A stretch of 59,454 bases of DNA from Gammaproteobacteria bacterium (lineage in GTDB: Bacteria; Pseudomonadota; Gammaproteobacteria; JAKEHO01). How positions within the stretch are numbered: the stretch's first letter is position 1; every line of letters starts with the position of its first letter. The translations under genes were made by a program, and so were the position numbers. This document shows, piece after piece, positions 2,263-21,575 of the stretch. The notes beneath the pieces were generated by a model that was not told the DNA's origin, searched no databases, and saw only the letters and a list, made by a program, of their open reading frames with translations. The DNA lies in NCBI GenBank assembly GCA_027296625.1, contig JAPUIX010000112.1, forward strand, positions 1 to 59,454. Reading direction: 5' to 3'.

Positions 2263-2985
2263 TTAAAACAGCAACGCCAGATTGCAATCCTGGGCGTCGT
2301 TTGCGATATCCCAGATGATGGGTGCTACTGCCGTTCGGCACTCGGTGGGGGCCGCACTAACCGGATCAAAATGGGTCGTGGGGCTCATCCCGGTATAGCG
2401 CACGGAGCCGGTTTGTGGAAGCCCGTCATCAACCTTCACATCCAACTCTCGGGCAATGTCGACGGGAATGTTATCGCCCAAAACAAGGTTGAGTCTCGGC
2501 GTCGCCACACCCGTATCGACATAGTCGACGCTCACTGCGAGCAGTACGGTACCGTTCAAAACATTGACCGGGGCCACACCCGCAACCTGATATGTCGCTG
2601 CCGTGGTGGCACCGCCCGGGTAGACCCCTTGAATGAACCCGGCCTTGGAGAGGTGTTCCCACGCCGCCGAGGCCTCATCCCAGTTCCCAGCGTCGATCTG
2701 CCCATTGCCCACAGTCGCTGCGGCAGCCGGGTTGGTGATGGCCTGGCCGATCGCCTGCGTCGCCAGCGCCGCAGCCATATCGCCCGGGACCTGACGGTAA
2801 CGGTCGATGAAGCCATAGTACGCCGCCTGGATCCCGGAACTCATCTCAGCCAGGCCACGCACTCTCGCGCTGTTGACTAATTCCTGACCCTTCACGACGC
2901 CGACAAGAATCAAGCCGACGATCACCAACACAATGGCGATCTCGACGAGCGTAAAGCCCGTCTGTCTTATCATCATGGTTTTCAT
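2263..2985 (-). CDS. Type IV pilin-like protein (paralogue 1)
   Basis: A type IV prepilin of about 240 aa. A short basic leader ends in G before FTLVEIA, the prepilin peptidase (PilD) cleavage and N-methylation site with the invariant E at mature position 5, followed by a single hydrophobic helix. The C-terminal region has two cysteines that could form the usual D-loop disulfide. I chose ATG 2985 because it leaves a normal leader; an in-frame start at 3021 would add 12 residues. It is a close paralogue of the gene at 4003-4731, and the two lie on either side of an ABC ATPase gene. No strong promoter of its own was seen; it is likely co-transcribed with that gene and the second pilin. Confidence 0.85.
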   Translation of the reverse strand: MKTMMIRQTGFTLVEIAIVLVIVGLILVGVVKGQELVNSARVRGLAEMSSGIQAAYYGFIDRYRQVPGDMAAALATQAIGQAITNPAAAATVGNGQIDAGNWDEASAAWEHLSKAGFIQGVYPGGATTAATYQVAGVAPVNVLNGTVLLAVSVDYVDTGVATPRLNLVLGDNIPVDIARELDVKVDDGLPQTGSVRYTGMSPTTHFDPVSAAPTECRTAVAPIIWDIANDAQDCNLALLF

Positions 2986-3049
2986 TTGCTTATGGTGCTG
3001 TCGGGATGTGATTCGCGTCACCGTTCTTCAAGTTTCAGGATTAGCTTAA

Positions 3050-3089: not shown

Positions 3090-3824
3090 CTAGTGCACTG
3101 GCGTCTTTGAAGTGACACACGCTAGGTAAGCCTGCTCTAGATCATCCACGCCATAGTGCTGGCAGCACTCGGTTGGCGAGCCTACGAAACGTAGCTCCCC
3201 ATCATGGAGTATCGCCATCCGATCGCACAATGCGTCGACATCGGCAAGCAGATGCGTACTGAAAAAGATCGTATGTTGTGACTCTTTCAGACCAAGGAGA
3301 AGGTGTTTGAACTGTGCCCGTGCCTTCGGATCCAGACCGCTCATCGGCTCATCCAGAATAAACAATGCTTTCTCACTCAGAATGCACGCCGCGAGACCCA
3401 ATTTTTGCGCCATGCCCTTGGAGTACTCACGGACGGGTTTTGACAGCGCCGAGGGATCTAGATCAATCGCACTAAACAATTGATTGACCTTGTCACGATC
3501 ATATTTGACGGAGTGAAGTTTGCACATGTAGAGAAGAAAATCTTTGCCGCGGAGAAAATAGGGCGGCACAAATCGTTCGGGCAGAAAGGCAAGCCGCGAT
3601 CGCGCTTTCGTATCTCGGTGTGTTATCCCGAAGAACTCGATCGTGCCATCATCTATACCGCAAAAGTCCAGCATACCCTTAATGAGCGTTGTTTTTCCTG
3701 CACCATTGACACCAACGAGACCGAAAAATTCGCCTTCGTCAACAACGAGATCAACCTTGGACAACACAACCTGTTTGCCATAGGCCTTGGCAACACTGTC
3801 AAGTTCCAACACTGTCTTCGCCAT
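3090..3824 (-). CDS. ABC transporter ATP-binding protein
   Basis: A 244-aa single nucleotide-binding domain of the kind that pairs with ABC-2 permeases. Walker A GVNGAGKTT (38-46), signature YSKGMAQ (134-140), Walker B ALFILDEP (153-160) and the H-loop histidine at 191 are all intact, so it should hydrolyse ATP. The likely partner is the ABC-2 permease encoded at 7524-8294, about 3.7 kb away, with a pilin gene and a cyclase gene in between. The substrate is unknown. Similar ATPase/permease pairs occur beside MSHA-like clusters in other proteobacteria, but a role in pilus function is only inferred from position. Confidence 0.85.
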   Translation of the reverse strand: MAKTVLELDSVAKAYGKQVVLSKVDLVVDEGEFFGLVGVNGAGKTTLIKGMLDFCGIDDGTIEFFGITHRDTKARSRLAFLPERFVPPYFLRGKDFLLYMCKLHSVKYDRDKVNQLFSAIDLDPSALSKPVREYSKGMAQKLGLAACILSEKALFILDEPMSGLDPKARAQFKHLLLGLKESQHTIFFSTHLLADVDALCDRMAILHDGELRFVGSPTECCQHYGVDDLEQAYLACVTSKTPVH

Positions 3825-4002: not shown

Positions 4003-4731
4003 TTAGTAGAGAAAAGCCAGATTACAGTTCTGCGCGTCGTTTGCGATGTCCCAAATAATGGGCGCCGCCGCCGTTATGCAGTTTACCGAGGTCGACGCAC
4101 TCACCGGATCAAAATCGGTCATGGGAGTCACACCGGTATAGCGCAGGACACCAGTCAGTGGCTGTCCGTCATCAACCTTCACATCCAGCTCCCGGGCGAT
4201 ATTGACCGGAATGTTATTGCCCATAATAAGGTTGAGCCTCTGTGCCACCGCAGCCGTACCGGAATAGTCGGCATTGCGCGCCAAGATCAATGTGCCATTC
4301 AAGGCATTGACCGGGGCGACGCCAGCAACTGCATACGCGGCTGCCGTTGTGGCGCCGCCCGGGTAGATCCCCTGGATAAACCCGGCCTTGGAGAGCTGTT
4401 CCCACGCCGCCGAGGCTTCATCCCAGTTCCCGGCGTCGATCTGCCCGTTGCCGACAGTCACCGCCGCAGCTGGATTGGCGATGGCCTGACCAATCGCCTG
4501 TGTCGCCAACGCCGCAGCCATATCGCCCGGGACCTGGCGGTAACGGTCGATGAAGCCATAGTACGCCGCCTGGATCCCGGAGTTCATATCGGCCAGGTTA
4601 CGCACCCTCGCGCTGTTGATTAACTCCTGGCCCTTCAAAATACCGCCGAGCAGCAAGCCAATAATCACCAGCACAATAGCAAGCTCCACGAGCGTGAAAC
4701 CGGACTGTTTTGACACCAAATTCTTCATCAT
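4003..4731 (-). CDS. Type IV pilin-like protein (paralogue 2)
   Basis: A 242-aa prepilin: basic leader, cleavage site before FTLVELA with E at mature position 5, and a hydrophobic first helix with GQELINSARVR. The middle part is nearly identical to the product of 2263-2985, while the C-terminal third differs more. Two C-terminal cysteines could form a disulfide. It is the best candidate here for a promoter-proximal gene under a sigma-54-type promoter at 4776-4790. It may be a major or minor MSHA-type pilin; the sequence alone does not decide which. Confidence 0.87.
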   Translation of the reverse strand: MMKNLVSKQSGFTLVELAIVLVIIGLLLGGILKGQELINSARVRNLADMNSGIQAAYYGFIDRYRQVPGDMAAALATQAIGQAIANPAAAVTVGNGQIDAGNWDEASAAWEQLSKAGFIQGIYPGGATTAAAYAVAGVAPVNALNGTLILARNADYSGTAAVAQRLNLIMGNNIPVNIARELDVKVDDGQPLTGVLRYTGVTPMTDFDPVSASTSVNCITAAAPIIWDIANDAQNCNLAFLY

Positions 4732-4775
4732 GATCTACCGCCTCACTCTATTAAAAAACGCCTATTGGTTCATAT

Positions 4776-4790
4776 GCATTTTGCATGCCA
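4776..4790 (-). promoter_or_regulatory. Predicted sigma-54 (RpoN) promoter for the pilin/ABC operon
   Basis: The minus strand reads TGGCATGCAAAATGC, matching the sigma-54 pattern TGGCACG-N4-TTGC with the invariant GG and GC at the required spacing and two mismatches elsewhere. The -12 GC is at 4776-4777, which puts the start site near 4764 and leaves about 33 nt before the pilin ATG at 4731. A sigma-54 activator of the NtrC family is encoded in this window at 23110-24549. Confidence 0.6.
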
Positions 4791-5357
4791 TCTTCATATC
4801 TACTTGATAGTTAGAGACTTTTCTCAGACCTCCTCGTCCCTAACCGACTCCGCTGTGTCAGCATATCAACAAAAACGTCGAAAATTCAACATTTATCATG
4901 GAAACCTCAGGCACCACAGCACAAAACAACGGTAAGGTACCTATCCAAGGCGCATCCGGACGTGCTGAGCCCAGCGATAGCTATGGTGAGCCTCAACCAT
5001 CATAGGGATCACGGACGATACCGCCGCACATTGAGTCACACGCTTTATGTCACGCTTTTTGCATATATCATCAATTATCCGATGCTATCCACAAAATGCC
5101 TGGGGATACCCTTGAGGTTGAAAAATACGATCGCTAGACTGCGACGAACAGTTTTATCTGCGAAGCAGACAGTCGACGCCAAATGCGGCGCATTGAAGCA
5201 AGCACACAGGTTAACTCGTGCCTTCTTTGCAGGGGGTTGTTAAAGATTCCACCTGACTGGCATTAGCTCGGATAGGTGGATATATCAAAAAAGTTAGGTT
5301 AAAAACGCTTCTATAAGATGCACGCCGTAACACCTCAACTCATTTCACTAGCGAACG
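4791..5357. other. Long intergenic region before the adenylate cyclase gene
   Basis: About 570 bp between the sigma-54 box and the cyclase start. I see no supported gene. Short open frames here lack ribosome-binding sites and family resemblance. A TATAAG near 5312-5317 could be a -10 element for the cyclase, but no good -35 pairs with it. The region is AT-richer than its neighbours and probably holds regulatory sites for both divergent units. Confidence 0.4.
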
Positions 5358-6662
5358 ATGCCTAGAATCACTCGCCAGAATAGCATCAAGGTCGTTCTGA
5401 TATTCGCGGTCTTCTTGGTGTTTCTATTCAATGGAATCGGTCTACTGCGTTTTAAATTCCACGTGGGCTCGGATATTTCTATTCAGCAAGGGCTCCTTAC
5501 TCAGATGCTTCAGTACGGCGAACTCACCTTACCTGAGGCGATGAAGACGCCCGAGTTCTTTGCCTTTGTCTTGATTGGTCTGACCTTGTGTATATTCCTG
5601 CCTTTATTGAGCCCCGTCAAAGCATCGATTCTAACGCTTCTCGCCATGATACCGCCGGTCTATATGAATTATGCGGGACCAACGCAAAATACGCTTCTAC
5701 CAATGGAGTACAGCCTGTTAACCATCTTGATGCTCTTCGTAGTAAACGTGCTAATCAGTTACTTTGTCGAAACGCACGCGAAACAGAAACTAATCGCTGT
5801 ATTTGGTCAATACGTTCCTGCAGCAGTGGTTGGCGATATAAGCAAGCAATTAGGCAAACTATCTCTCGATGGCGAATCCCGCGAACTTACCGTGATTTTT
5901 TGTGACCTCAAGAATTTTTCAGGCATATCAGAACAGTTGAATCCGAAACAACTCGTTCAGTTCCTTAATGAATTTTTTACGGCGATGACCAAAATACTGC
6001 ATGAGCATGGCGCCACAATAGATAAGTATATGGGCGATGCAATCATGGCGTTTTGGGGGGCGCCGCTTCCACAGCCAGATCATGCACAAAGGGCCGTCAT
6101 GGCCGCACTGCATATGCAAAAGGAACTGGAGAACATCCGCATGGCATTTAAGCACAAGAGTTGGCCGGATATCAGCATGGGAATTGGAATTAACACGGGA
6201 GTCATGAACGTAGGGAATATGGGCTCCGAGTTTCGCATTGCATATACGATTGTCGGTGATGCCGTAAATCTTGGCTCTCGCCTAGAGCCACTAACACGGA
6301 TCTATAAAGTCGATACGATAGTGAGTGAATCAACGAAACACGCGGCAAACAATACCTTATTCAAAGAGCTTGATCTGGTACAGGTTAGAGGCAAACAGGT
6401 CCTGACACGAATCTTTAACCCTATTTGTGCAATCCAAGAAGCGGACAAATCGCTCCAAGAACACCTTGAGCTGCACGATGAGGCTCTGCAATGCTATTAC
6501 GCACGCGAATGGGACAAGGCGAGATCGATGTTTCAACGGCTGCAACCGCAAGTCCCGGACTACGCCGAATACTATGCGCTAATTATCAGTCGCATTGACA
6601 CGCACAGAGAACAGCCGCCACCGGATGACTGGGGAGGCGAGACGCGATACTACGCGCTATAG
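5358..6662 (+). CDS. Membrane-bound class III adenylate cyclase
   Basis: A 434-aa protein with about four N-terminal hydrophobic segments (roughly 12-30, 67-85, 90-104, 118-137) and a cytosolic class III cyclase domain (about 170-360). Metal-binding aspartates are D183 in IFCDLKNF and D227 in YMGDAI. K223 and T297 occupy the base-selecting positions in a K/T pattern usual for bacterial adenylate cyclases. N304 and R308 of the VNLGSR transition-state motif are present. The full periplasmic CHASE2 sensor common in such cyclases is absent or reduced to a short stretch. A C-terminal tail of about 75 aa is helical and TPR-like. It is predicted to make cAMP, perhaps for the Crp/Vfr protein encoded at 1056-1688. 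Confidence 0.88.
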   Translation: MPRITRQNSIKVVLIFAVFLVFLFNGIGLLRFKFHVGSDISIQQGLLTQMLQYGELTLPEAMKTPEFFAFVLIGLTLCIFLPLLSPVKASILTLLAMIPPVYMNYAGPTQNTLLPMEYSLLTILMLFVVNVLISYFVETHAKQKLIAVFGQYVPAAVVGDISKQLGKLSLDGESRELTVIFCDLKNFSGISEQLNPKQLVQFLNEFFTAMTKILHEHGATIDKYMGDAIMAFWGAPLPQPDHAQRAVMAALHMQKELENIRMAFKHKSWPDISMGIGINTGVMNVGNMGSEFRIAYTIVGDAVNLGSRLEPLTRIYKVDTIVSESTKHAANNTLFKELDLVQVRGKQVLTRIFNPICAIQEADKSLQEHLELHDEALQCYYAREWDKARSMFQRLQPQVPDYAEYYALIISRIDTHREQPPPDDWGGETRYYAL

Positions 6663-7523: not shown

Positions 7524-8294
7524 CTACAAGTTTTTACGATAAAGATCAAAAAGCCCCACAGAGACTAACAAGCCAACGTAGATGACCGTTTGCGCAAATA
7601 TTGGGCCAAGTACGTTCCACTGACCGGTGTGATAGATCAGCCAATCCGTCAGCGTAAACTGATCCAGGCTCGGCAGAATGAAGGCAATGCCATCAACTAT
7701 TTTGTTGATTACATTTTGTGACAGGGTTCCACTTTCAAGCAACGGACTTTGTCCGATCAGCTGTATGGCGCTGATGCTGCGCGATAGTATGTAAAACGCC
7801 ATAACGGCACTAAAAGCAGGCGTGATCTGGTTAAAGGTGAACATGCAAAGTAAGCTCAATGCCGTAATCATCCATAATTCACAAGTCAATGATGCACCCC
7901 ACAATACGACCTGTGCTACCGGCGCATGGAGCAATAAAACCAAGCTAATGAGGACGGCAATAACAGCTGCGAGCACAGAGAACCCGATCAACTTCCCGAA
8001 ATAATAGGTTGCGCGCGCAATAGGCAAAGACAATACCAGTTCGAAACCTTTGTCGTTGAACTCACGTACCATGCTGGTGATTACGAAAAGACTGACCACG
8101 AAAACAGAAAATAAGCGCAACGTAGCGGCCAAGAGACTGCTCTGTACCTCGTTGCTTTCGGTTATTGCCAGTTCCCCAGCGAACTCACTCAGAGCAAACG
8201 CCGCTATTATTACGATGATAACCAGCCAAAGGAGGCGGTTGCGCAGCGCCTCTAAAACTGTGAAAACGCCGATTGTTAATGCAGAATAAAACAT
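7524..8294 (-). CDS. ABC-2 type transporter permease
   Basis: A 256-aa integral membrane protein with about six hydrophobic segments and the layout of ABC-2 permeases: a short cytosolic start, a first helix (LWLVIIVIIAAFAL), a loop with the cytosolic motif REFNDKGFELVLSLPIARATYYFGK typical of the coupling region, then further helices. The partner ATPase is most likely the gene product of 3090-3824. The substrate is unknown. The gene is divergent from the histidine kinase gene with a 78-bp shared upstream region. Confidence 0.83.
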   Translation of the reverse strand: MFYSALTIGVFTVLEALRNRLLWLVIIVIIAAFALSEFAGELAITESNEVQSSLLAATLRLFSVFVVSLFVITSMVREFNDKGFELVLSLPIARATYYFGKLIGFSVLAAVIAVLISLVLLLHAPVAQVVLWGASLTCELWMITALSLLCMFTFNQITPAFSAVMAFYILSRSISAIQLIGQSPLLESGTLSQNVINKIVDGIAFILPSLDQFTLTDWLIYHTGQWNVLGPIFAQTVIYVGLLVSVGLFDLYRKNL

Positions 8295-8372
8295 ATTCTT
8301 TGCTAGGCTGCTTTTTTACAGAATAATTGTATAGTTTACTATAGGGTCTGGAATTATTTGAGAATCAATTCT

Positions 8373-10097
8373 ATGTCGCAGATTGTGACACTAATTCGTC
8401 AGCGACAGGAGCATTTGATCATCGCATTGATGCTTCTCCTGCTCCATCTGTCCATTTGGTCAGAGTTTGGTAGCCCCTTATCTCGTTCACTTATGCTCGC
8501 CCACCTTGGGTTATTTTTGCTTTGGCAGCCGCTGTGGCGTGGTGATCAGCAACTGAAATGGCAGGATACGGTGGTTTTTATTGTTCTAACTCTAGCCTTT
8601 CTGATGTGGATCAATTGGTGGCTGATCTTTGGCTGGCTAGTGCTCTTAATCGGCTTAGTAGGCGGGCGAATACTTTTGGATCAGAATGAGCGAAATGCTT
8701 ACATGATTGTATTGATATTTCTCGTATCCGAGTTGCTCATCGGATGTGTCACGCAACTTTTTTCCATTCGAATATTGCGAGGAGTACCGGAGCTTTTTGA
8801 ATTTGCGCTGCTACTACTGCTGGTATCGCTAGTATTAATACCGCCAGGTCGAAGTATCGAAAAGCAAGCACGCCCGGTGGACTTTCTACACGGCATTACC
8901 ATGTCGCTGCTCATCAGCCTTTTGGCGCTTGGCAGTCTCGTTAATATGTACTCTACCGGTGCAGAGTACCCGATCGCATTACTCCAAACCCTCATTGCGA
9001 TCGCCCTGTTTTTATCCGCCATCAGCTGGCTTCTTTCGCCAACGGCTGGATTCAGTGGCTTGGCGCAGCTCTGGACCCGTTCGCTACTCAGTATAGGAAC
9101 CCCTTTCGAGCAATGGCTCACAAAGCTCTCAAGGCTCGCGGAACAACAACAAACCCCGGAAAAATTCTTAGAAGCGTCAATGGACGCACTCGTGGAATTG
9201 CCGTGGGTCGCAGGCGTCAAGTGGCGAGCCCCTGGAAGTGAAGGAACACGAGGCGTCATGGCCACGCACAGGATCGAGTTAAAGATTTCAGAGATCTCCG
9301 TGACGATTAACAGCAATAGGCCTGTTGGAGCTGCCTTGCTACTTCATTGCAAGTTATTAATGCAGCTACTTGCAAACTTTCACATAGCCAAAACGAGGGA
9401 ACGGGAACTTACACACCGCGCCCATCTACAAGCGATCTATGAGACCGGAGCTCGGGTGACCCATGACATAAAAAATCTGCTGCAGTCATTGCAGATCATA
9501 ACGGCTGCTATGCAAAATAACATGAGCCGTAAGAAGACGGACATTTTCAATTTGTTGCAACGACAGCTGCCCCACCTCTCTCAGCGGCTGCAGCTCGCCC
9601 TCGACAAGTTACAAGCACCAGAAAAGGCTACCAATGAAGAAACCCATCTAAAATCGTGGTGGCAGCTACTAAAAGGGCGGTATAAGACAGGAGATATTGA
9701 GTTTACATCGGATATTAAGGCAGATCCGATTATCCCTGCTGATCTTTTCGACAGTATCGTTGAAAATCTTCTGGAGAATGTGCGAAGCAAGCAGCAAATA
9801 GAAACTGCGCTGAAGATTACTGTGAGCCTATTCGCAGACGAAGCCGAACTTATCTTAGATGTCTGTGATAATGGGAGTAGAATCGAACCCGACAGAGCCA
9901 ATGCGCTGTTTAAACAGCCCGTGGCGTCAGACAGTGGATTAGGTATTGGCCTGTATCAAGCCGCCAAACAGGCAGAACTCATGGGTTACACGCTTGTGCT
10001 GAAGCATAACGAACCGGGTCAGGTGTGTTTTGAGCTATCCCGAAGCACGGTCCATACCGATGACAATCCACAATTCGGGCTGTTCACCTCAGAGTGA
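8373..10097 (+). CDS. Membrane sensor histidine kinase (PrsK-like)
   Basis: About 574 aa. The N-terminal 230 residues form a multi-helix membrane region, followed by a linker or degenerate GAF-like segment (about 260-345) and a kinase core. The H-box is TGARVTHDIKNLL (phosphorylated His about residue 364 from this start). The N-box is SIVENLLENV and the G-boxes are DNGSRIEPD and GLGIGLYQA. I chose ATG 8373; a TTG at 8358 would add five residues. No regulator is adjacent, but a sigma-54 response regulator is encoded at 23110-24549 on the far side of the msh block, and the pair resembles PrsK/PrsR. Pairing is inferred. Confidence 0.83.
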   Translation: MSQIVTLIRQRQEHLIIALMLLLLHLSIWSEFGSPLSRSLMLAHLGLFLLWQPLWRGDQQLKWQDTVVFIVLTLAFLMWINWWLIFGWLVLLIGLVGGRILLDQNERNAYMIVLIFLVSELLIGCVTQLFSIRILRGVPELFEFALLLLLVSLVLIPPGRSIEKQARPVDFLHGITMSLLISLLALGSLVNMYSTGAEYPIALLQTLIAIALFLSAISWLLSPTAGFSGLAQLWTRSLLSIGTPFEQWLTKLSRLAEQQQTPEKFLEASMDALVELPWVAGVKWRAPGSEGTRGVMATHRIELKISEISVTINSNRPVGAALLLHCKLLMQLLANFHIAKTRERELTHRAHLQAIYETGARVTHDIKNLLQSLQIITAAMQNNMSRKKTDIFNLLQRQLPHLSQRLQLALDKLQAPEKATNEETHLKSWWQLLKGRYKTGDIEFTSDIKADPIIPADLFDSIVENLLENVRSKQQIETALKITVSLFADEAELILDVCDNGSRIEPDRANALFKQPVASDSGLGIGLYQAAKQAELMGYTLVLKHNEPGQVCFELSRSTVHTDDNPQFGLFTSE

Positions 10098-10134: not shown

Positions 10135-10893
10135 TCAGGGTAGTTGGCCTGAAACCACCATGCGATTTCTTAGGACACTCGGCGAGATCCAGGTCACCAG
10201 ATCATCAAACTCAAGGATGGGATCACGGCTGTAGATCTTCAGTACATAGATTGTATCCCCATCGGTGTTCTCGATCTCTTGTGCTGAGGTCGGTGGAAGT
10301 GTTTTTCCGTTACTTCCATGGGAGATAATGATAGCTGGGATATTTTGAGCGATATCCGCTCCGCCTGCTGCATCCTTGACAGTGATGTTGCCATTATCCG
10401 CCAGAACAAAAGACGGCACTGGATCATCTGCAAAGGCCGTGGTGACTTGATACGTATACCTTGAATCCCACGGATCCCTTTCTGGGACCCCAAGGTCTAC
10501 CCAGGGAAGATTACCAACCGCTGTCGAGCATACCTTGGGCGTGTTCACCCGGTCTTCCTGCCCATCATTGGCTGTAACGGAGACACACAAGCCTGTGTTG
10601 TCGCGACAGTCCGGACATATGAGTCGTCCATTGGTCATCGCGAACCCAATCAGCGCTTCCCTCGCCTGATCGAGGGTTTCGTGTGCTTTTTTGCGCTCAG
10701 ACTGTTCTACTTGAATCGACAGCGCCGGCAGCAAACTCCCCAGCAAAAGGGCCAGAATGATCAACACGATGGCCACCTCAATCAGGGAGAACCCATCATG
10801 GAGACTCTTGCGAGGTAGCTTACGCCGACGCAGCGTGTGCATCAGATTATCCATAGATCCATGCCCGTTTAGCGGATTATGGGCAACCACCAT
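10135..10893 (-). CDS. Prepilin-like protein at the end of the msh operon
   Basis: A protein of up to 252 aa with a long basic leader ending in DG before FSLIEVA, a prepilin peptidase site with E at mature position 5, then a hydrophobic helix (VLIILALLLGSLLPAL). The globular part has two Cys pairs (ICPDC and later cysteines). The longest frame starts at 10893 and overlaps the upstream gene by 17 nt; an ATG at 10854 would remove the overlap and 13 residues. Its place at the 3' end of the operon suggests a minor pilin or pseudopilin, perhaps MshC- or MshD-like. Exact identity is uncertain. Confidence 0.78.
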   Translation of the reverse strand: MVVAHNPLNGHGSMDNLMHTLRRRKLPRKSLHDGFSLIEVAIVLIILALLLGSLLPALSIQVEQSERKKAHETLDQAREALIGFAMTNGRLICPDCRDNTGLCVSVTANDGQEDRVNTPKVCSTAVGNLPWVDLGVPERDPWDSRYTYQVTTAFADDPVPSFVLADNGNITVKDAAGGADIAQNIPAIIISHGSNGKTLPPTSAQEIENTDGDTIYVLKIYSRDPILEFDDLVTWISPSVLRNRMVVSGQLP

Positions 10894-12340
10894 CCTGGCA
10901 TGCTTTATCGTTGAAAATCGGCGTTAGCGGCCCATTGACAAAGGCTTCATCGCCTGCCGGAATACTCCCCGGTCCTGCTCCCGGCACATTGTCGGCTTCC
11001 AGATAGTTACCGATATTTCCCTTATCAACATCATTTGCACGTGTCTGCACGCCTAGACTCCGGCTCGCAACCACCATAGCAACTTTTGCGTTCGCTGCAT
11101 TGAGGGATAGTATCGGCACGCCGCTCCCCGGACTTCCTGGTCTGTACGCATCGTCCACCCCAAAAAATACCATCTCCCGCCATTCGTCCCACCACCACCA
11201 ATACCAGTCCAGGCCGGTCGCACCTAGATCTTTGTCAAAGCATACCGGATAGGGATTACCGGTAAAGGGGACAAAATCAGCCACCGGGATAGCTGGATCG
11301 GGATCAGTCTTCCAAGCGCCCAACATGCCCGTACCGGCTGTATCATCCAAGGTATCGGGGATACGTCCAAAGCGCTCGGTAGGATCATCGTCGTATGCAG
11401 GCGGACTGCCTCCATTCAAAACCGCTGCCCACGGATATCGCCCGCCGTTGGTGACATCGGCGGCGTAGTCATCCAGACAGGCTTGCGCTCTTTCCGCGAC
11501 CCATTCATCCATGCGCTCATAAATTCTCTGAAAATGTTGCGGCGTTATGAGCAACGAAACATCGTTAAAGATGACGTTAGCGCTCGCGCCCCGAACTTGA
11601 GGACTCGCCACGAATACAGACGGCGTCGCACTCGGCAATGCATTACTACCCGGTGTGCCCACGGGCGCTCCCACCTTAGTGCCCTGTGCATTATTCACTC
11701 CGTTAAGCGTCTCCAAATAGTTCGCGGGCAGGCTGATACCATCGGCAGGATTCGTGCTTCCGCACTCAGTCAGTGTTGCAGGTGAGCTGACCCCCCGAGT
11801 CTGCGAGCCGATTAGCTCACCGGAGGCAAAAACGATCGCTAGCGCGCGCCCGGGACTCGTGGGACCCGCAATTGGGCTCCCGGTCGCCGTCTCCACAACA
11901 AACTGGCCATCGCTATTGCTTGTCAGCGTTCGTTTTGGATTATTCTTATAGTTACCAGAGACGGCGTACCACAAGCACTGGCCAGCGCCATCTCGAAGGG
12001 GTGGTAACCCAAGTGTGCGCCAAGGTAACCGGCCGATGGCGCTCTCTCCCGTCGCAGCACAGGTACTAGCAACGCCATCACCATCGAAATCAGGGCACGG
12101 AAGATAGCCTTGCGGCTGTCCAGGACGCGTTTCAGCATAGGTTATTGCATAACCCACAAGAGCATCCCTTGCCCTGGCCAGGGATGACGCCGTTGCGTAG
12201 AGATCTGTGGCCTGCCCGCTTGCTGCATTTAACTTCGTTATCAACAAGGTTGATGCACCCACGACCATGACGAGTGCAAACGCTAACAGCGCAGCCCCCG
12301 ATTGATAACGGGGTGAATATTTATCAAGTCCGCTTACCAT
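10877..12340 (-). CDS. Large pilus-associated protein with N-terminal membrane helix
   Basis: A 487-aa protein with one hydrophobic segment (about 14-36, GAALLAFALVMVVGASTLLI) preceded by basic residues, resembling PilX/GspK-like minor pilin components, although a clear G-FTLxE cleavage site is missing. The exported part has several cysteines, an acidic DFDGDG stretch (84-89) that could bind calcium, and a striking aromatic run WYWWWW at 379-384 followed by DEW. It lies between mshK- and pilin-like genes on one transcript and may be a tip or adhesin component. That is inference from context. Confidence 0.7.
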   Translation of the reverse strand: MVSGLDKYSPRYQSGAALLAFALVMVVGASTLLITKLNAASGQATDLYATASSLARARDALVGYAITYAETRPGQPQGYLPCPDFDGDGVASTCAATGESAIGRLPWRTLGLPPLRDGAGQCLWYAVSGNYKNNPKRTLTSNSDGQFVVETATGSPIAGPTSPGRALAIVFASGELIGSQTRGVSSPATLTECGSTNPADGISLPANYLETLNGVNNAQGTKVGAPVGTPGSNALPSATPSVFVASPQVRGASANVIFNDVSLLITPQHFQRIYERMDEWVAERAQACLDDYAADVTNGGRYPWAAVLNGGSPPAYDDDPTERFGRIPDTLDDTAGTGMLGAWKTDPDPAIPVADFVPFTGNPYPVCFDKDLGATGLDWYWWWWDEWREMVFFGVDDAYRPGSPGSGVPILSLNAANAKVAMVVASRSLGVQTRANDVDKGNIGNYLEADNVPGAGPGSIPAGDEAFVNGPLTPIFNDKACQDGGCP

Positions 12341-12409
12341 ATCGCAAAGCAGCCAAAATGCGTATCAGGGATAGCTTTTATGGTTTAACGATTGGCGCCG
12401 ATATAGTTA

Positions 12410-12916
12410 CTACCGACTTGGTGCCGGTGAACTTGGTTTCTGTTTCGATTCGTTAACATCAATGACGGCGCCACTCAACGGTTCGTAGGTCTGCCCAACC
12501 TTGAGCTCCACTCTGGTAACGTTATCCGGCATAACCACCGGAACCCGGTCACCCCGAATTCCTGCTGTATCCACACTGATGTATTGAGATTCCAGGTCCC
12601 CATCAAAGGTGCTGCTTCCATTCACCCATGCCGTACTGCGTCCACCCTTACGATATACAAGGCCGTTGACCGTGACGCCCTCAATAACGGGTGTTGGCTC
12701 AACAACTTCTACTTCTTCCTCAACGACTGTTATCTCGATGGGCTCGATGTCCATGAACGGCCGTTCATGTCGAAGTTCCTCCAGCATTGCTCGTTCTTTC
12801 GCCGTCATAAACAGCCTGCCTAATTCATCCCCCTGGATAGCACTCGCATACAACCCTAACGCAACGATTGTTGCTATAAATAAACTGTATCCGAGTGACA
12901 TTTTGTTAGCCAGCAT
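12410..12916 (-). CDS. mshK: MshK/PilP-like pilus assembly protein
   Basis: A 168-aa protein with an N-terminal signal or membrane segment (LFIATIVALGLYAS), an acidic Glu/Val-rich linker (about 56-75), and a small beta domain containing GVTVNGLVYRKGGRSTAWVNG, typical of PilP/GspC homology domains that touch the secretin. It follows mshI- and mshJ-like genes with a 9-bp gap, matching MshK in the MSHA order. The predicted location is periplasmic, anchored in the inner membrane. The family assignment rests on position and this motif. Confidence 0.72.
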   Translation of the reverse strand: MLANKMSLGYSLFIATIVALGLYASAIQGDELGRLFMTAKERAMLEELRHERPFMDIEPIEITVVEEEVEVVEPTPVIEGVTVNGLVYRKGGRSTAWVNGSSTFDGDLESQYISVDTAGIRGDRVPVVMPDNVTRVELKVGQTYEPLSGAVIDVNESKQKPSSPAPSR

Positions 12917-12925
12917 AAATGTGCC

Positions 12926-13549
12926 TCACGAAATGACTAACTGCCTACCATCAGATGGTCTTATCGTATACCACAATAACTCGCATTGAGCCAAAATGTT
13001 CTCCTGCTTCGGATCACGCTCAATGGTCTTCTGTGAACTCGTGAACGTGCAGTCAGCTACACTGTATAGACCTGACGCGCGTTGATTAAGTTCGTCAAAC
13101 AAGCGCTCAAGATCGCCCTCATGCAATAATCCAAATGTAAGCTTCATTTTACTCACATAAATCTGGTAGCTGCCTCGGTAAATAGCATAACCGGGGGTGT
13201 ATTCTTTTTGCGACGTAATCTCATAGCTTAACGACGGAAGATCAATCCTCGCCCCCGCGCTTCGCAGCGTTTCAATCCAGTTCAGCCTATGTTCATTTCC
13301 AATGATTCCTTCCGCATACAGTTCCCTAAATCTTGGATAGAACTGCTTAATAAATCGGTCTTCCTCATCGATCGCAAGATACTTACGGCTAATGCTTTGG
13401 AATCGTACTTGATCCTTATTAAAATCAGATTCCATCTCGTCGCGAAAATAGATACTAGCCGCAAGCATAGCGCCGCTAACCAGAAAACAAAGCACAAACA
13501 CAGTGAGTGCGCCACGAAGTATAGGCCAATTTATGTCAGCTAGCTTCAT
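12926..13549 (-). CDS. mshJ: MshJ/PilO-like pilus assembly protein
   Basis: A 207-aa bitopic protein: short cytosolic start, one membrane helix (about 13-33, GALTVFVLCFLVSGAMLAA), a coiled-coil-prone stretch, and a periplasmic domain ending in an LxVS segment. This is the PilO/GspM-type plan of inner-membrane alignment proteins. It overlaps the mshI-like gene upstream by 14 nt and precedes the mshK-like gene, which supports translational coupling and the MshJ assignment. Confidence 0.75.
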   Translation of the reverse strand: MKLADINWPILRGALTVFVLCFLVSGAMLAASIYFRDEMESDFNKDQVRFQSISRKYLAIDEEDRFIKQFYPRFRELYAEGIIGNEHRLNWIETLRSAGARIDLPSLSYEITSQKEYTPGYAIYRGSYQIYVSKMKLTFGLLHEGDLERLFDELNQRASGLYSVADCTFTSSQKTIERDPKQENILAQCELLWYTIRPSDGRQLVIS

Positions 13550-15149
13550 TGCCCATACCCAAGACGACTCTTACGGAAAAGTTAGCCTTGCCCGCTTCAC
13601 TGCCAGTGGTACCACGAAGGCGTGCGTCCGAACTCGTATCTAACGGAAATGTAACGACACTCACATCGTAAACAGAGTCCATCGTTCGTAACGTTTCGGC
13701 ATACTCACTAATGGTTGCCAAAGCTTTGCGATAATTACCATCGAATCGGTCAAGATAACCCGTGACCAACGCAATTTGGAAAAATCGATATGATGTATTC
13801 GTTGCCTCGGCTGTAGCTGGCGCAGCAATTCGATTCTCACTTCCCCGCGTACGGATGTTACCGATCTGATCGTTGGGATCCGTACTTGCACTCCAATCCA
13901 ATTTTTCCAGCTGTATGTTTGGGAACCTAGTCAGTCCCTTGCTAATTATCTTCATCATTTCAAAGGGTGACGTCTTATACTGATCTATTGTGTCAACCAA
14001 ATCGACCGCCACCTTGATCTCTGCGGGAGATACCGGGGTATCCTTTAATCGCTCCCGAGCCATCTGGTAGCGCGCCTCGTAAAAATCCGCTTTTTGTTCG
14101 GCAGCGATACGTTTTTGCCTGAAGCCAATCCCTTCCATTAATGTGAAGCCACTCCATAATGCGCTTCCAAGTATCAAGAGTAGACTACCAACCAGCATCC
14201 CATTGCGAATCCGATGCAACTGATAAATCGGAGTTTGACTGGGAGTCGCATAATTGTGCTTCGGAGGAGATTTCAATAGCAGGTGGGCAAACAGTGGCTC
14301 ACAAAACGGCGACGATAGCATGCGTTTCATACCGATCCGTCGGCCTACCTCATTAACATCCACTAAGTGGTAGCGTATCAACGCCGAGTCGTTACACTGC
14401 GTCCTAAGATCGGAGAGCAATCTGCCATGGCTCAACAGGTAAACGTCTAACGCTTCATCCGGCAATGTGAGGCGGAGGCTATTAAGATATTTGTGGATCT
14501 TTCCAACCTCTTCCAGGATGTATGACGCATCCGGTACCTCACCCAATCGCCGCGTTGTCGCGAGACGACTCATCTTAAGCTGCTGATTGTGAAAAAACGA
14601 TTGCCGCAAGCCGCTCGTCTGCTGAAAACTCACAATCAAAGTGTAAGTTGATGAGCCCGGCAAGGATTTCAATAGCGTTTCGCTCAGGATTGGGACAGAA
14701 TAGATCCCGGCTAGTGGTATCTTGTGCTGTGGTAATAGTTCAAGCCAGGGCTTCAGGATCTCCTGATTCATCAGCGCCGTGAATAGCACCTTGTCATCAC
14801 GACGGCCCTCTGAATCACGTCCCTGCATCAAGGCACAGATGTAAGGAGAATCCCTAAATAGCCGGTTCTTCTTTCGAGCGATCAGGGTCCGCCTGTCGGC
14901 GAGGTAAACATGAGGGATGTGTTCCTGCCTAAATTCCTCCTCCACGATATCCACTAATAAATAAACCGGCACGTCCGGTGTTTCCTCTAGATATCGCGAA
15001 AAATGAAATAACCCCTCCTCGGTGGCATCAAAGACATAAGAATTGCTCAAACCACCTTTGTGCCAATGGTAGACAGTAAGCTTGCCACCGCCCAAAAAGA
15101 AAACCCGTCTACCAAGAAAATCAAATTTTGATCTGAGTAATGACATCAT
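13536..15149 (-). CDS. mshI: MshI-like protein (PilM-PilN type fusion)
   Basis: A 537-aa protein. The first 310 residues look like an actin-fold PilM/GspL-type cytosolic domain. A single membrane helix at about 322-345 (GMLVGSLLLILGSALWSGF) follows, then a coiled-coil and a PilN-like periplasmic domain. A single protein thus supplies what PilM and PilN supply separately in Pseudomonas type IV pili. It overlaps the mshG stop by 29 nt. It should link the cytosolic motor to the periplasmic alignment complex with the MshJ- and MshK-like proteins. Confidence 0.75.
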   Translation of the reverse strand: MMSLLRSKFDFLGRRVFFLGGGKLTVYHWHKGGLSNSYVFDATEEGLFHFSRYLEETPDVPVYLLVDIVEEEFRQEHIPHVYLADRRTLIARKKNRLFRDSPYICALMQGRDSEGRRDDKVLFTALMNQEILKPWLELLPQHKIPLAGIYSVPILSETLLKSLPGSSTYTLIVSFQQTSGLRQSFFHNQQLKMSRLATTRRLGEVPDASYILEEVGKIHKYLNSLRLTLPDEALDVYLLSHGRLLSDLRTQCNDSALIRYHLVDVNEVGRRIGMKRMLSSPFCEPLFAHLLLKSPPKHNYATPSQTPIYQLHRIRNGMLVGSLLLILGSALWSGFTLMEGIGFRQKRIAAEQKADFYEARYQMARERLKDTPVSPAEIKVAVDLVDTIDQYKTSPFEMMKIISKGLTRFPNIQLEKLDWSASTDPNDQIGNIRTRGSENRIAAPATAEATNTSYRFFQIALVTGYLDRFDGNYRKALATISEYAETLRTMDSVYDVSVVTFPLDTSSDARLRGTTGSEAGKANFSVRVVLGMGNEAS

Positions 15150-16326
15150 AAATCGGACCCAAAACAGATAGCATTACCCAAGCAACGATAAGGCCTAATG
15201 TCACCGTCATAGCGGGTTCAAGCGTCGCTTGTAGTCGCTCGATCGATTCTTTAACGTCGCGGGTGTAGAAATAACTCACATTCAAAAGAGCATTTTCGAG
15301 CGCGCCTGTAGTCTCACCAACCTTCAACATTCTAACTACGAGGGGCGGGAAAAGCCCAGTCGCCTGGAAGCTTGCACTCAGGCTTGCACCATCGGCAATT
15401 TGCCGGCCAACCTGGCGCATTGCTTCTTGAACTGCCTTATTACCCACAATTTCCTCGCCAACGTGTATGCACTCCATAATCGTGATACCTGATGCATACA
15501 TCATAGCAAAGAAGTTCGCCAAGCGAGTGAGTATGATCTTTTTAAGCAGAGGCCCGAAAATCGGGATTTTCAACTTATAATAATCAACTTTGTACCGCAT
15601 TGCGGGACTCACCCGAACCGCTAGTATTAAGGCGACAATCACGACGACGGGCACAAGTAAAATGATATACCAATAGTTAGCAAATATTCCTGATACGCCG
15701 ATAAGCACCTTGGTATGCATCGGCAGTTCCTGCCCCATGCTTTGAACAAACTTCAAAAGTTCAGGCACTAAATAGGTCATCAAGAAAAAAAGAACAGCGA
15801 TCACAACACCCACTACAAACAAGGGATAGATGAATAACTTTTTGGTATGGGCCACCTGCTCATCCTGCCATTTAAGATTCTCAGCAAGATTCCGGAACAC
15901 CTCGCTAACCTGACCGCTGCGCTCCCCCGCTTTGACGAGGTTTGCAAATACGTCGCTAAAAACGGAGGGAAACTCAAACATCGTCTCTGACAACGTTTTT
16001 CCGCCTTCAATAGCTTCAAGCATCGCTGAAGTAACTTCACGCATGCGCGGGTTGTCTACACTGTCCCGCAAATCGGTTAGCGCTTCCAGAATTGGCACGC
16101 CGGCTCGTGACGTCTGTTCAAGGTGAAAGCAAAAAGTAATCAGGTCTCGGCGTTTTACGCCCCGCCTAGCGATGCTTAGGCCACGAAAAGCAAGCTGTTT
16201 AAAGTTAACAAGGTCTAGCCCCATCTTCTTGAGGCGTAGCTCAAGATCAGAAACATTAAATGCATCAACGCGTCCTTGAAGGACCTTGCCGTCCGCATTC
16301 ATCGCCTTGTATTTGTAGTATTCCAT
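15121..16326 (-). CDS. mshG: MshG inner-membrane platform protein (GspF/PilC family)
   Basis: A 401-aa type II secretion F-family protein of normal length. It has two cytosolic helical-bundle repeats (about 60-160 and 265-365, each with a G-x-x-x-x-A/E-L and GE(x)SG/TG motif: KAGERSGQV and KVGETTGAL) and three membrane spans near 165-190, 217-240 and 375-398. It is the platform on which the ATPases act during pilus polymerisation. It is nine bases downstream of mshE and overlaps mshI, so all three are probably one transcript. Confidence 0.92.
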   Translation of the reverse strand: MEYYKYKAMNADGKVLQGRVDAFNVSDLELRLKKMGLDLVNFKQLAFRGLSIARRGVKRRDLITFCFHLEQTSRAGVPILEALTDLRDSVDNPRMREVTSAMLEAIEGGKTLSETMFEFPSVFSDVFANLVKAGERSGQVSEVFRNLAENLKWQDEQVAHTKKLFIYPLFVVGVVIAVLFFLMTYLVPELLKFVQSMGQELPMHTKVLIGVSGIFANYWYIILLVPVVVIVALILAVRVSPAMRYKVDYYKLKIPIFGPLLKKIILTRLANFFAMMYASGITIMECIHVGEEIVGNKAVQEAMRQVGRQIADGASLSASFQATGLFPPLVVRMLKVGETTGALENALLNVSYFYTRDVKESIERLQATLEPAMTVTLGLIVAWVMLSVLGPIYDVITQIKI

Positions 16327-16335
16327 GATAGGTGG

Positions 16336-18051
16336 TTATTGCTTCAAGCGACTTGTCAAATCGACGACACGGGCAACTTCATCGAGACTGGTGATACCTT
16401 GAAGTACGCGATTAGCACCCATCTCGGCGAGAGGTCGATACCCCGTGGCCAACGCGGCCCTAGTGAGATCACGCCGAGTCGCATGGCGCGCGATCAGTTC
16501 ATCCAAACTTGAATCAAAATGCAACAGTTCCATCAGTGCTGTGCGACCCTTGTATCCTTGATGGTCGCATGCATCACACCCTTTGGCGCGGAAGATGCTC
16601 TGGGACTTGTCAGTGACCTTGAGCCCCAACAAGTGTCTTTCCGTATCTGACGGTTCATAGGCCTCCTTGCAGTTCGAACAAAGCGTTCTGACCAAGCGCT
16701 GGGCTATAATACCGATGATATTTCCAGCCATGATGTCTGGCGAAATACCAATATCGAGCAGGCGCGGGATGGCGCCAATAGCAGAGTTCGTGTGCAAGGT
16801 GGAAAACACCTGATGTCCGGTCATTGCAGCTCTGAACGCCATTGTTGCAGTGTCTACATCACGTATCTCGCCGACCAGCACGATGTCTGGATCTTGGCGC
16901 ATCACAGAACGAATACCGCTAGCGAAATCGAGCCTTATGGCTTCGTTCACTGAGGTCTGACGTATCATGGCCGTCGGGTATTCCACAGGATCTTCCAAGG
17001 TCATGATGTTGACAGACTCGTCATTTAAATAGTTCAGTAGCGAATAAAGCGTCGTGGTCTTGCCACTCCCTGTCGGGCCTGTCACCAGGATGATTCCTTC
17101 CGGACGCGCCACCATGACCTTAAGCGTCTCAAGCGCCTCTTCATGTAATCCGAGCTCTTCCAGCTGCATGATCCCTTTCTGGCGGTCGAGGATACGGAGC
17201 ACAATATTCTCGCCGTGGACAATAGGAAGCGTAGAGACCCGGAAGTCGATGGGCCGTCCAGAAAGCGACAGGGAAATTCGACCATCCTGGGGCGCGCGGG
17301 TTTCTGCGATATCCATCCCAGCCATGACCTTTAATCGAACGGCAATGGCCGACCAATAGTTCTTGTGGAGACTGCGAACCTGCCGTAACACGCCATCGAT
17401 GCGATAACGGAAGCGTAGAAAATCCTGCTCCGGATTGAAGTGAATATCCGACGCCCCGCGCTTAACGGCATCGGACAACAATGCATTCACGAGGCGTACA
17501 ACAGGCTGACTGTACTCGTCGCTCTCCGCATCCAAACTTTGGTAATCTATTTCACCGGTTTCGATCTCATGCAAGATGCCGTCAACGGATAGCTCGAAAC
17601 CATAAAACTGGTCGATCGCCTTTTGGATCTCCGCCTCGCCCGCCAGCAAAGGAACGATTTCCACATTGTTCCCTAACTGCGCACTGATCTGATCCAATGC
17701 GACCACGTTAAATGTGTCTGCCATAGCCACGGTCAATTGATGACTATCTTCATCGTAAGTAATGGGCAGGATATGGAAGCGCCCTGCCATTTCCTTGGGA
17801 ATAAGCTTGATGGCCTCGCTGTCCGCTACGACCTTTAATAGATCAATACTTTCCTGCCCCAGCGCGCCTCCGACCACATCCCGGATGATCGCCTCTGTGG
17901 CAAAACCCAAGCGCACCAAGATTTTACCGAGGTGTTCCTTTGTTCGATTTTTTTGCTGTTCCGTGAGGGCGATGTGGATCTGGTCGAGGCTGACTACCCC
18001 CTTTTTTACCAGTAGCTCGCCGATACGAAGGTTTTTCTTCGGGGCATCCAC
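16336..18051 (-). CDS. mshE: MshE pilus extension ATPase with MshEN c-di-GMP-binding domain
   Basis: A 571-aa GspE/PilB-type ATPase. The N-terminal domain carries two motifs of the MshEN fold that binds c-di-GMP: RIGELLVKKGVVSLDQ (9-24) and LGKILVRLGF (41-50). The motor domain has Walker A GPTGSGKTT (325-333), Walker B DIVLVGEIRD (389-398), and a four-cysteine zinc site (C458, C461, C492, C495). All catalytic elements look intact. It powers pilin polymerisation through MshG. The c-di-GMP response is family knowledge from Vibrio cholerae MshE, and the motifs are seen here. Confidence 0.93.
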   Translation of the reverse strand: MDAPKKNLRIGELLVKKGVVSLDQIHIALTEQQKNRTKEHLGKILVRLGFATEAIIRDVVGGALGQESIDLLKVVADSEAIKLIPKEMAGRFHILPITYDEDSHQLTVAMADTFNVVALDQISAQLGNNVEIVPLLAGEAEIQKAIDQFYGFELSVDGILHEIETGEIDYQSLDAESDEYSQPVVRLVNALLSDAVKRGASDIHFNPEQDFLRFRYRIDGVLRQVRSLHKNYWSAIAVRLKVMAGMDIAETRAPQDGRISLSLSGRPIDFRVSTLPIVHGENIVLRILDRQKGIMQLEELGLHEEALETLKVMVARPEGIILVTGPTGSGKTTTLYSLLNYLNDESVNIMTLEDPVEYPTAMIRQTSVNEAIRLDFASGIRSVMRQDPDIVLVGEIRDVDTATMAFRAAMTGHQVFSTLHTNSAIGAIPRLLDIGISPDIMAGNIIGIIAQRLVRTLCSNCKEAYEPSDTERHLLGLKVTDKSQSIFRAKGCDACDHQGYKGRTALMELLHFDSSLDELIARHATRRDLTRAALATGYRPLAEMGANRVLQGITSLDEVARVVDLTSRLKQ

Positions 18052-18053
18052 GG

Positions 18054-19727
18054 TTACTCCGTAGTAACTGCAGCAGACAGGGATGTTATACGTGATTTGA
18101 CTGCAGTGTTATTAAAGTTAACCGAGTCTCGCCCGGCCAACTCCAATGCGCGATTATAATAGGTCAACGCTGATTTCGACTGTCCCAAGTGATCCAGACT
18201 GACCGCAAGATTCAACGCATAGTCTGAGTTAGTGCTATCGGCACTATACGCATTAAAATAGGCGCCCTGTGCTTCCGCCCAACGCGACTGTCTTGCATAG
18301 GCATTACCGAGATCAAACTTAAGGTAGGGTGCACCGGGATTCTCAGCGATCAAAAGCTTGACCCGGCTCTCAACCAAGACAGGATCGCTTCCACTACCCC
18401 GCAGGTTCAACATGGCTGCTTGGGCGACGGTGTCCTTGGGATTAAGTGTCAACAGCTGACTGTATATCCGGTACGCTATTTGCAAATCGCCATGGTGCGT
18501 GGCAATGGCTCCAAGCCCGAGTAACGCATTCCGGTTTTCCGGCTCCGTGCTTAGGATCTCTCGGTAGCCTGCCGCAGCCTGAGGGTAGTTCCCTGCAAGG
18601 TAGGCCTGATAGGCACTCGTCACCAAGCTGGCTACGCGATCGGGGGACCGGCTGCGCGTGATCCTGATCAGCCTGGGTTCCACCACGAACTGTCCGGGGG
18701 ACATCAGGCTTTCACCCTCACCCCTCATGGGCGCTGGGGCTTGCGCGGCGAATCGGGTTGTAGGCGCTACTTTGACCTCAGGCTCGGTGCGGAGCGTCTG
18801 GGGTGGCGCACCGGCTGCCACCTCGGCCTCACCCGCCAAGCTCCGCGGCGTCCCCACGGCAACCTCGGGGCTGGTTGGTACGGACGCCACCGTCTCAACT
18901 TCCACCTCGCCGGCCACCGCAACATCTGGGGCGGGCACGACCACTTCCCCGATAGGCGGCTCAGCAACCGGCTGAACTGGAAGTGGAGACTCAATGCCCT
19001 TTGCCACCAACGGTGAGGGCACATCCCGCGATATGGGCGTCACCATCAGATAGTAGATGACGCTGCCCGCGAGCACCGCCACCAACACAAGACCGCTGAA
19101 CGCGCCCCATTTCAGACCGCTGCCCGAGGCGGATGTCCCGGCGGCAGTGAATACCGTCTGCGCTGCAACCGGTGTCGGTTGCTCGGACACGCCCGGGCCA
19201 ATCCCACGGGCACCTATCCCGGGCTCCCCCGTCACGGTCCTGTCGTACGAGCCGGTGGCATCAAAATAGCCCTCAAGCGAACTCCGCACCGCGCGCTGTG
19301 ACGGCAGGGTGGAGACCTGATCGTAGGAGTCCTCCCCAAGGACTTGCATCTCGGGATCCGTCTGCCCGTCCTCGTTATCGTAGGGCGCAGCTGACCCTTC
19401 TAGGACCATGGTGTCCGCTGCGAGCTCTGTGGTCTTCTCAGGGTCGTGAGACCCTTCGGGGCCAAGCGCTGTGTCCTCTGCCTCCGCCTCCATGGGTTCG
19501 AGGCCGAGCCGCGTGCCCTCTTCTTCGCCTGGGAGATCATCGACGCTTGCCTCAATGGGCACGTCCTCCGCGCTCGGTGGCGTGGCCTTTGGGGTCTCGG
19601 CCGTGGCAGCCGGCTTAGCGCTCGAAATCTCCCCTTCCGGTTTTTCGGCCTCCGCCTCGCGCCGGCGCTTAGCCGCCGCTTTCTTCTCCTTTTCGGCCTT
19701 CTTGAGCGCGTCCATCAAGAGGCTCAT
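18054..19727 (-). CDS. mshN: MshN-like TPR protein
   Basis: A 557-aa protein: a charged start (MSLLMDALKKAEKEKK) typical of MshN/GspB-like proteins, an acidic low-complexity region to about 200, one membrane helix at 208-229, a Pro/Val/Glu-rich periplasmic linker (about 235-345), and a C-terminal domain of about five TPRs (375-545). It overlaps mshL by 4 nt (ATGA) and ends 2 nt before mshE, so expression is coupled. MshN is thought to help secretin or pilus assembly. The linker is unusually long and compositionally biased. Confidence 0.82.
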   Translation of the reverse strand: MSLLMDALKKAEKEKKAAAKRRREAEAEKPEGEISSAKPAATAETPKATPPSAEDVPIEASVDDLPGEEEGTRLGLEPMEAEAEDTALGPEGSHDPEKTTELAADTMVLEGSAAPYDNEDGQTDPEMQVLGEDSYDQVSTLPSQRAVRSSLEGYFDATGSYDRTVTGEPGIGARGIGPGVSEQPTPVAAQTVFTAAGTSASGSGLKWGAFSGLVLVAVLAGSVIYYLMVTPISRDVPSPLVAKGIESPLPVQPVAEPPIGEVVVPAPDVAVAGEVEVETVASVPTSPEVAVGTPRSLAGEAEVAAGAPPQTLRTEPEVKVAPTTRFAAQAPAPMRGEGESLMSPGQFVVEPRLIRITRSRSPDRVASLVTSAYQAYLAGNYPQAAAGYREILSTEPENRNALLGLGAIATHHGDLQIAYRIYSQLLTLNPKDTVAQAAMLNLRGSGSDPVLVESRVKLLIAENPGAPYLKFDLGNAYARQSRWAEAQGAYFNAYSADSTNSDYALNLAVSLDHLGQSKSALTYYNRALELAGRDSVNFNNTAVKSRITSLSAAVTTE

Positions 19728-21367: not shown

Positions 21368-21397
21368 CGTGTGGGCCCCATTATTGGCTTTATACAA

Positions 21398-21575
21398 GAT
21401 TCGGCACCTCTCTAAACTAGCATATTATAAATATTATAGAAGCAATTCACTTACATCGGTTTTCGAATGCGGGGCTCTCATGGAAGCCAGACATCGGCGA
21501 GGGGGCATGAAGCCGGACGCAATACTAAAGTGTAGCTAATAGAGAACGGCAATAAAGCCCGGGATGCCCATACCC
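21398..21575. promoter_or_regulatory. AT-rich gap between mshM and mshL, possible promoter
   Basis: A gap of about 180 bp inside an otherwise tightly packed minus-strand operon. On the minus strand it holds two TATAAT hexamers in an AT-rich stretch at about 21420-21440, close upstream of mshL. I found no good -35 partner at 17 bp, so the promoter is tentative, but the size of the gap suggests that mshL to the last pilin gene can be transcribed apart from mshM. Confidence 0.4.

Follow-up and report, generated by a model that had tools for sequence, protein, structure and literature searches.

The window analysed here covers positions 1 to 59,454 of contig JAPUIX010000112.1 (assembly GCA_027296625.1, Gammaproteobacteria). 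It contains a block of msh pilus genes with a membrane histidine kinase gene at one end and the gene of a sigma-54 response regulator at the other, and beyond the kinase gene two pilin genes that enclose a gene for an ABC transporter ATPase (Table 1). The MshL secretin scored 261.0 bits against TIGR02519 (cut-off 250.2) and the MshE-type ATPase carries MshEN and T2SSE domains, as in MSHA-type systems. Judged by gene linkage, pilin 1 would belong to this adjacent MSHA-type machinery, and gene order and spacing indicate that the ABC ATPase gene and pilin 2 are probably co-transcribed with it. The layout recurs in the loci of relatives, in which the msh block is followed by the kinase gene and then, divergently, by an ABC-2 permease gene, a gene of the 6711-7436 type, the pilin and the ABC ATPase gene.

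Table 1. Features of the pilin and msh region (positions in the window)
Feature	Position	Strand	Remark
Pilin 2, 77% identical to pilin 1	2263..3021	-	without a box of its own
ABC transporter ATPase	3090..3824	-	gene order conserved in relatives
Pilin 1, prepilin with N_methyl motif	4003..4731	-	predicted promoter target; ATG at 4731
Sigma-54 (-24/-12) promoter box TGGCATGCAAAATGCA (core TGGCATGCAAAATGC)	4775..4790	-	predicted start near 4764
Putative enhancer palindrome, promoter-proximal copy TGTTGATATGCTGACA	4856..4871	-	conserved
Putative enhancer palindrome, far copy TGTTGAATTTTCGACG	4876..4891	-	conserved
Class III adenylate/guanylate cyclase, divergent from pilin 1, common intergenic region	5358..6662	+	
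Conserved gene of unknown family, one TM-like segment	6711..7436	-	
ABC-2 type permease	7524..8294	-	
Membrane histidine kinase, about six TM-like segments, invariant THDIKNLLQS H-box	8373..10097	+	
msh block: MshM-like ATPase, MshL secretin, TPR protein, MshE, MshG, unknowns, minor pilins	10135..23108	-	
Sigma-54 response regulator (receiver, AAA+ with GAFTGA, Fis HTH)	23110..24549	-	directly before mshM

The product of the 6711-7436 gene gave no Pfam match. Homologues were present in 52 of the 369 genomes of the class (E 1e-12), in most loci beside the permease and the pilin, which makes it a candidate new part of the pilus or the transporter. A crp gene (1056-1688) lies 3 kb from the pilin, and the cyclase gene is divergent from it. 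Both genes recur near the pilin in some relatives, a possible cAMP input to the pilus.

The core TGGCATGCAAAATGC, on the minus strand at 4790-4776, occurs once in the window and has its GG and GC 10 nt apart, as in -24/-12 promoters. The first-pass annotation had reported this exact sigma-54 spacing and placed the box 45 bp before the pilin start codon; the spacing and the position were both recovered, while the distance from the end of the box to the ATG was counted here as 44 bp. This distance together with the -24/-12 geometry yields the predicted start site. Compared to TGGCAYGN4TTGC the box has one mismatch, matching 11 of the 12 consensus positions, and the genome encodes one RpoN (494 bits against a cut-off of 277). 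No sigma-70-like promoter was found in a search of 4700-5400, and candidate CRP, FNR and NtrC-like sites in the pilin-cyclase intergenic region were rejected, the best reaching 7/10, 7/10 and 8/12, respectively. As a single motif the box could be a chance match, in which case the pilin would have an ordinary promoter. Sites with up to two mismatches were at chance in the window (23 against 21.1 expected), and the 129 one-mismatch sites in the genome were only modestly above the 83 obtained with the reversed pattern. The significance of the box derives from its position-specific conservation and not from single-motif statistics.

Conservation was scored on first pilins, counting a box when a GG-N10-GC site reached at least 10/12 within positions -175 to -60 relative to the codon of the mature glycine. 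Thirty-nine first pilins from 38 of the 50 kinase-bearing genomes were tested. The other 12 genomes had no testable first pilin (G108, G133, G176, G209, G224, G240, G245, G283, G301, G315, G323 and G341, the last with a remote pilin-like match of 29% that was excluded), and second-copy pilins behind a first pilin were excluded from the counts. A box preceded the first pilin in 32 of the 39 loci, corresponding to 31 of 38 genomes and 15 of 19 families, and none of 11 related pilins from genomes without the kinase; as the genomes are related, these counts are inflated. The orthologous pilin of the genus mate, like that of two genomes from other families, has the box at -52 to -64. The box lies at -70 on an RBG_16_51_14 contig (L087) that was kept out of the kinase-positive count because the analysed stretch ends before any kinase gene. 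Shortening or lengthening the spacer by one base left 0 of 41 pilins with a box. At the threshold used, 7 of the 39 pilins in kinase-bearing genomes were without a box and 13 without the tandem enhancer described below, and the exceptions include weaker or distant boxes (GT for GC in L138; a box at -347 in L150).

Within the same loci the box preceded 29 of 41 pilins as opposed to 4 of 332 other module genes. The first-pass annotation had proposed a search for the same box before other msh genes, and this extension of the circuit was not borne out. Among 30 regulator loci, a box before the regulator-msh operon was found once, at score 10 (L187). The pilin gene follows the 6711-7436-type gene at 8-136 bp in 7 loci without the kinase and at 106-298 bp in 20 loci with it, as if the pilin had gained a promoter region of its own.

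A dyad count upstream of 32 boxes yielded a 16-bp palindrome, TGTYGA-N4-TCRACA, that is often present twice about 20 bp apart. In the window the tandem copies lie 65-101 bp upstream of the box. Palindromes scoring at least 10/12 were present in 27 of the 32 regions (0.97 expected in shuffles) and the second-best site reached this score in 19 (0.03 expected), but as these regions also supplied the consensus, the other enhancer checks carry more weight. The tandem site is unique in its own 2.42-Mb genome, at 4856-4891. When 49 genomes were scanned for the tandem pattern with up to three mismatches, 10 genomes had one match each and the reversed pattern had none. Eight of the ten matches lie at a pilin, including one on a G120 contig that was found before any pilin had been noticed there, and two lie elsewhere (L232 and L236). 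Tandem sites occurred upstream of 25 of 38 pilins and of none of 333 other genes when cyclase and kinase genes were set apart. The cyclase gene had a tandem site in 2 of 10 cases and the kinase gene in 3 of 41, either in intergenic regions common with the pilin (L127, L134, L147 and L149) or at the composite site of L158. Pilins of kinase-less genomes had no enhancer score of 10 or above (0/11). Single sites were uninformative, at chance in the window (7 against 3-12 in shuffles) and too loose a pattern in the own genome (277 sites against 175 in the control). The outline TGT-N10-ACA is also that of NifA sites. The tandem palindromes are likely an upstream site for an NtrC-family activator.

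Enhancer and box were then considered jointly. A composite scan, requiring a tandem enhancer 40-240 bp before a box, covered 1.04 Mb of related loci. It gave 27 matches distributed over 26 loci, with 23 of these loci at a pilin and exactly one match in the window; the reversed sequences gave 0. Together with the conservation of position and exact spacing over 15 families and the lack of a sigma-70-like site at 4700-5400, this makes a chance box very improbable.

A separate arrangement was observed beside the kinase homologue of L158 (G209:C29:147000-166500), where positions 10715-11010 hold three enhancer-like palindromes and a sigma-54 box, TGGCACGCCCTCTGCA, at 10881. No protein gene is evident downstream of this box, and a terminator-like hairpin follows at 10986-11001; folding of the stretch was not better than that of shuffles. 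Enhancer and promoter may here serve not a pilin but a short transcript that stops at the terminator, possibly a small RNA under the control of the regulator.

Both signalling genes named in the first-pass annotation, a kinase at 8373-10097 and a sigma-54 activator with GAFTGA at 23110-24549, were recovered. The first encodes a membrane histidine kinase and starts with the ATG at 8373, its open reading frame opening at a TTG at 8358; the product of the second has receiver, GAFTGA-containing AAA+ and Fis-type HTH domains. Thirteen aligned kinases have in common the N, G1 and G2 motifs and an invariant THD-K-N-LQS H-box, and fourteen regulators have in common the phosphoacceptor D68, most GAFTGA residues and the recognition region NRTTLYS. 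The regulator gene lies directly before the MshM-like gene in 26 of 30 loci examined, often behind metF or ahcY. About 13 kb separate the kinase gene from the regulator gene, so that their proposed partnership rests on co-occurrence. The kinase was found in 50 of the 369 class genomes (E 1e-20 or better) and the regulator in 47 (E 1e-110 or better), with 45 genomes having both, 5 the kinase alone and 2 the regulator alone (G032 and G216). For this co-occurrence Fisher's test gave p 1e-49, uncorrected for kinship. The kinase-only genomes are G028, in which the kinase is broken, G199, which is 64% complete, and G108, G224 and G323, which have divergent kinases (29-32%). Of 398 genomes sampled across the phylum, 5 had the kinase, and all 5 belong to this class.

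In G028 the kinase homologue (L089, G028:C11, about 1277-2361) is interrupted by stop codons and no regulator is found at E 1e-110, while box and enhancer before the pilin persist. Like the pilins without box or tandem enhancer in kinase-bearing genomes, this speaks against the circuit proposed below, although a recent loss of the circuit is possible in this genome.

The best NCBIfam match of the regulator is PrsR (342.6 bits), which raises the question of whether this pair belongs with its kinase to the PrsK/PrsR (PEP-CTERM) system and was recruited to a pilin, all the more as PrsR targets are also described with a sigma-54 motif and an upstream motif (PMC1569441). This score is however far under the PrsR cut-off (TIGR02915, 502.6) and level with that for NtrC (336.5), the kinase matched no PrsK model, and PrsR motif 1, as given in PMC1569441, ends in TTTACA and not in TCRACA. 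The genome furthermore has no exosortase (PF09721, 0 matches). A PrsKR identity was rejected on account of the regulator score and the missing exosortase, and recruitment of such members to the pilin is scarcely credible.

A further sigma-54 pilin locus lies on another contig of this genome (L210, G000:C113:1-5000). It consists of a PilR-like regulator, an adjacent ORF in the place of a kinase and a pilin of the PilA type that has a sigma-54-like box of its own, TGGCACAGATCCTGCT. For C113 the names PilS, PilR and PilA are presumptive, given from position and resemblance. That the window circuit and this PilSR-like locus are one and the same was rejected, as C113 is a separate contig with its own pilin and box and an upstream region without the enhancer. 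In seven related loci (L147, L148, L149, L153, L159, L162 and L209) an additional NtrC-family regulator gene stands beside the pilin or ABC gene, its product 34-36% identical to the regulator of the window and 35-39% to that of C113.

Another of the cell's NtrC-family regulators, for instance the PilR-like protein of C113, could activate the sigma-54 promoter of pilin 1, with the kinase and the msh-linked regulator serving something else. The genome offers three more such regulators (E 1e-60 or better), one of which adjoins the PilA-type pilin with its own box, and the additional regulators of the seven related loci fit the same explanation. Against it, box and enhancer track the kinase (32/39 versus 0/11), the kinase in turn tracks the msh-linked regulator (both in 45/369), and the enhancer is lacking upstream of the C113 pilin. 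Activation by another regulator is on this evidence unlikely.

Box and enhancer are conserved jointly, and kinase and regulator co-occur. The reading we favour, at a probability of roughly 0.8, is that pilin 1 is expressed from the sigma-54 promoter and driven by the msh-linked regulator and the kinase by way of the tandem palindromes. The membrane kinase would phosphorylate the regulator, which would bind the two palindromes and drive open-complex formation by RpoN-RNA polymerase at the box at 4775-4790, making transcription of pilin 1 dependent on RpoN. The circuit would be reserved for the pilin of the neighbouring MSHA-type pilus, with no such promoter before the msh assembly genes themselves, and by analogy with PilS the signal is possibly the level of pilin itself. 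A two-component circuit turning on the pilin genes had been suggested in the first-pass annotation. The proposal is well supported by the comparative conservation of box, enhancer and kinase-regulator pair and by the finding that pilins of kinase-less genomes have neither box nor enhancer (0/11), and it would now include a defined enhancer that the annotation did not have. Conservation of the switch and of the sensor/activator pair across many gammaproteobacterial families suggests a dedicated on-switch for the pilus. A more far-reaching version, which we regard as tentative and rather doubtful, is that of a private, essentially one-promoter system in at least 15 families that serves the MSHA-type pilin only, with the kinase reading the membrane pool of pilin and L158 as a small RNA variant. 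If true, the pilin-reading kinase would close a feedback loop for a second pilus beside that of PilSR in the same cell.

Many environmental Gammaproteobacteria attach to surfaces by means of MSHA-type pili. If such pili have their own kinase-regulator pair acting through a defined enhancer, their transcription would be under a switch that can be tested, two uncharacterised proteins would acquire a function, and a single cell would hold two distinct sigma-54 circuits for pilins. In a literature search of titles and abstract openings, no report of sigma-54 control of an MSHA-type pilin was found.

Among the closest known systems is the control of pilA by PilS-PilR and RpoN in the type IVa system of Pseudomonas aeruginosa. 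Like it, the locus described here has a multi-TM kinase, an NtrC-family regulator and a sigma-54 pilin promoter, with a functional link that we infer. PilSR is described as responding to the level of PilA (PMC6058289). The present system differs in that the pilin is part of an MSHA-type system, the msh block separates the kinase gene from the regulator gene, the enhancer is TGTYGA-N4-TCRACA, and a separate PilSR-like locus with its own PilA exists in the same genome. In commensal Neisseria, Npa/Nps and RpoN are described as controlling pilE alone among the pilus genes, which matches the proposal made here that a two-component system and RpoN act on the main pilin only, whereas the pilus there is type IVa and nps and npa share one operon (PMC6528607). 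PrsK-PrsR with RpoN has in common a kinase, an NtrC-like regulator, sigma-54 and upstream motifs and matching phylogenetic profiles, and its motifs were found by the same kind of profiling as here; its targets and upstream motif are different and, according to the same source, prsK and prsR are usually in tandem (PMC1569441). An RpoN-dependent PEP-CTERM gene has also been described (PMC9850573). The MSHA pilus of Vibrio cholerae has the same MshL, MshE, MshG and MshM-type assembly genes, whereas here an ABC transporter and a two-component pair accompany them, and a paper on that pilus states V. cholerae to be without PilS-PilR homologues (PMC9815625). The type of control is thus known from PilSR, and what would be new is a dedicated version for an MSHA-type pilus, in which the msh block is flanked by the kinase gene on one side and the regulator gene on the other.
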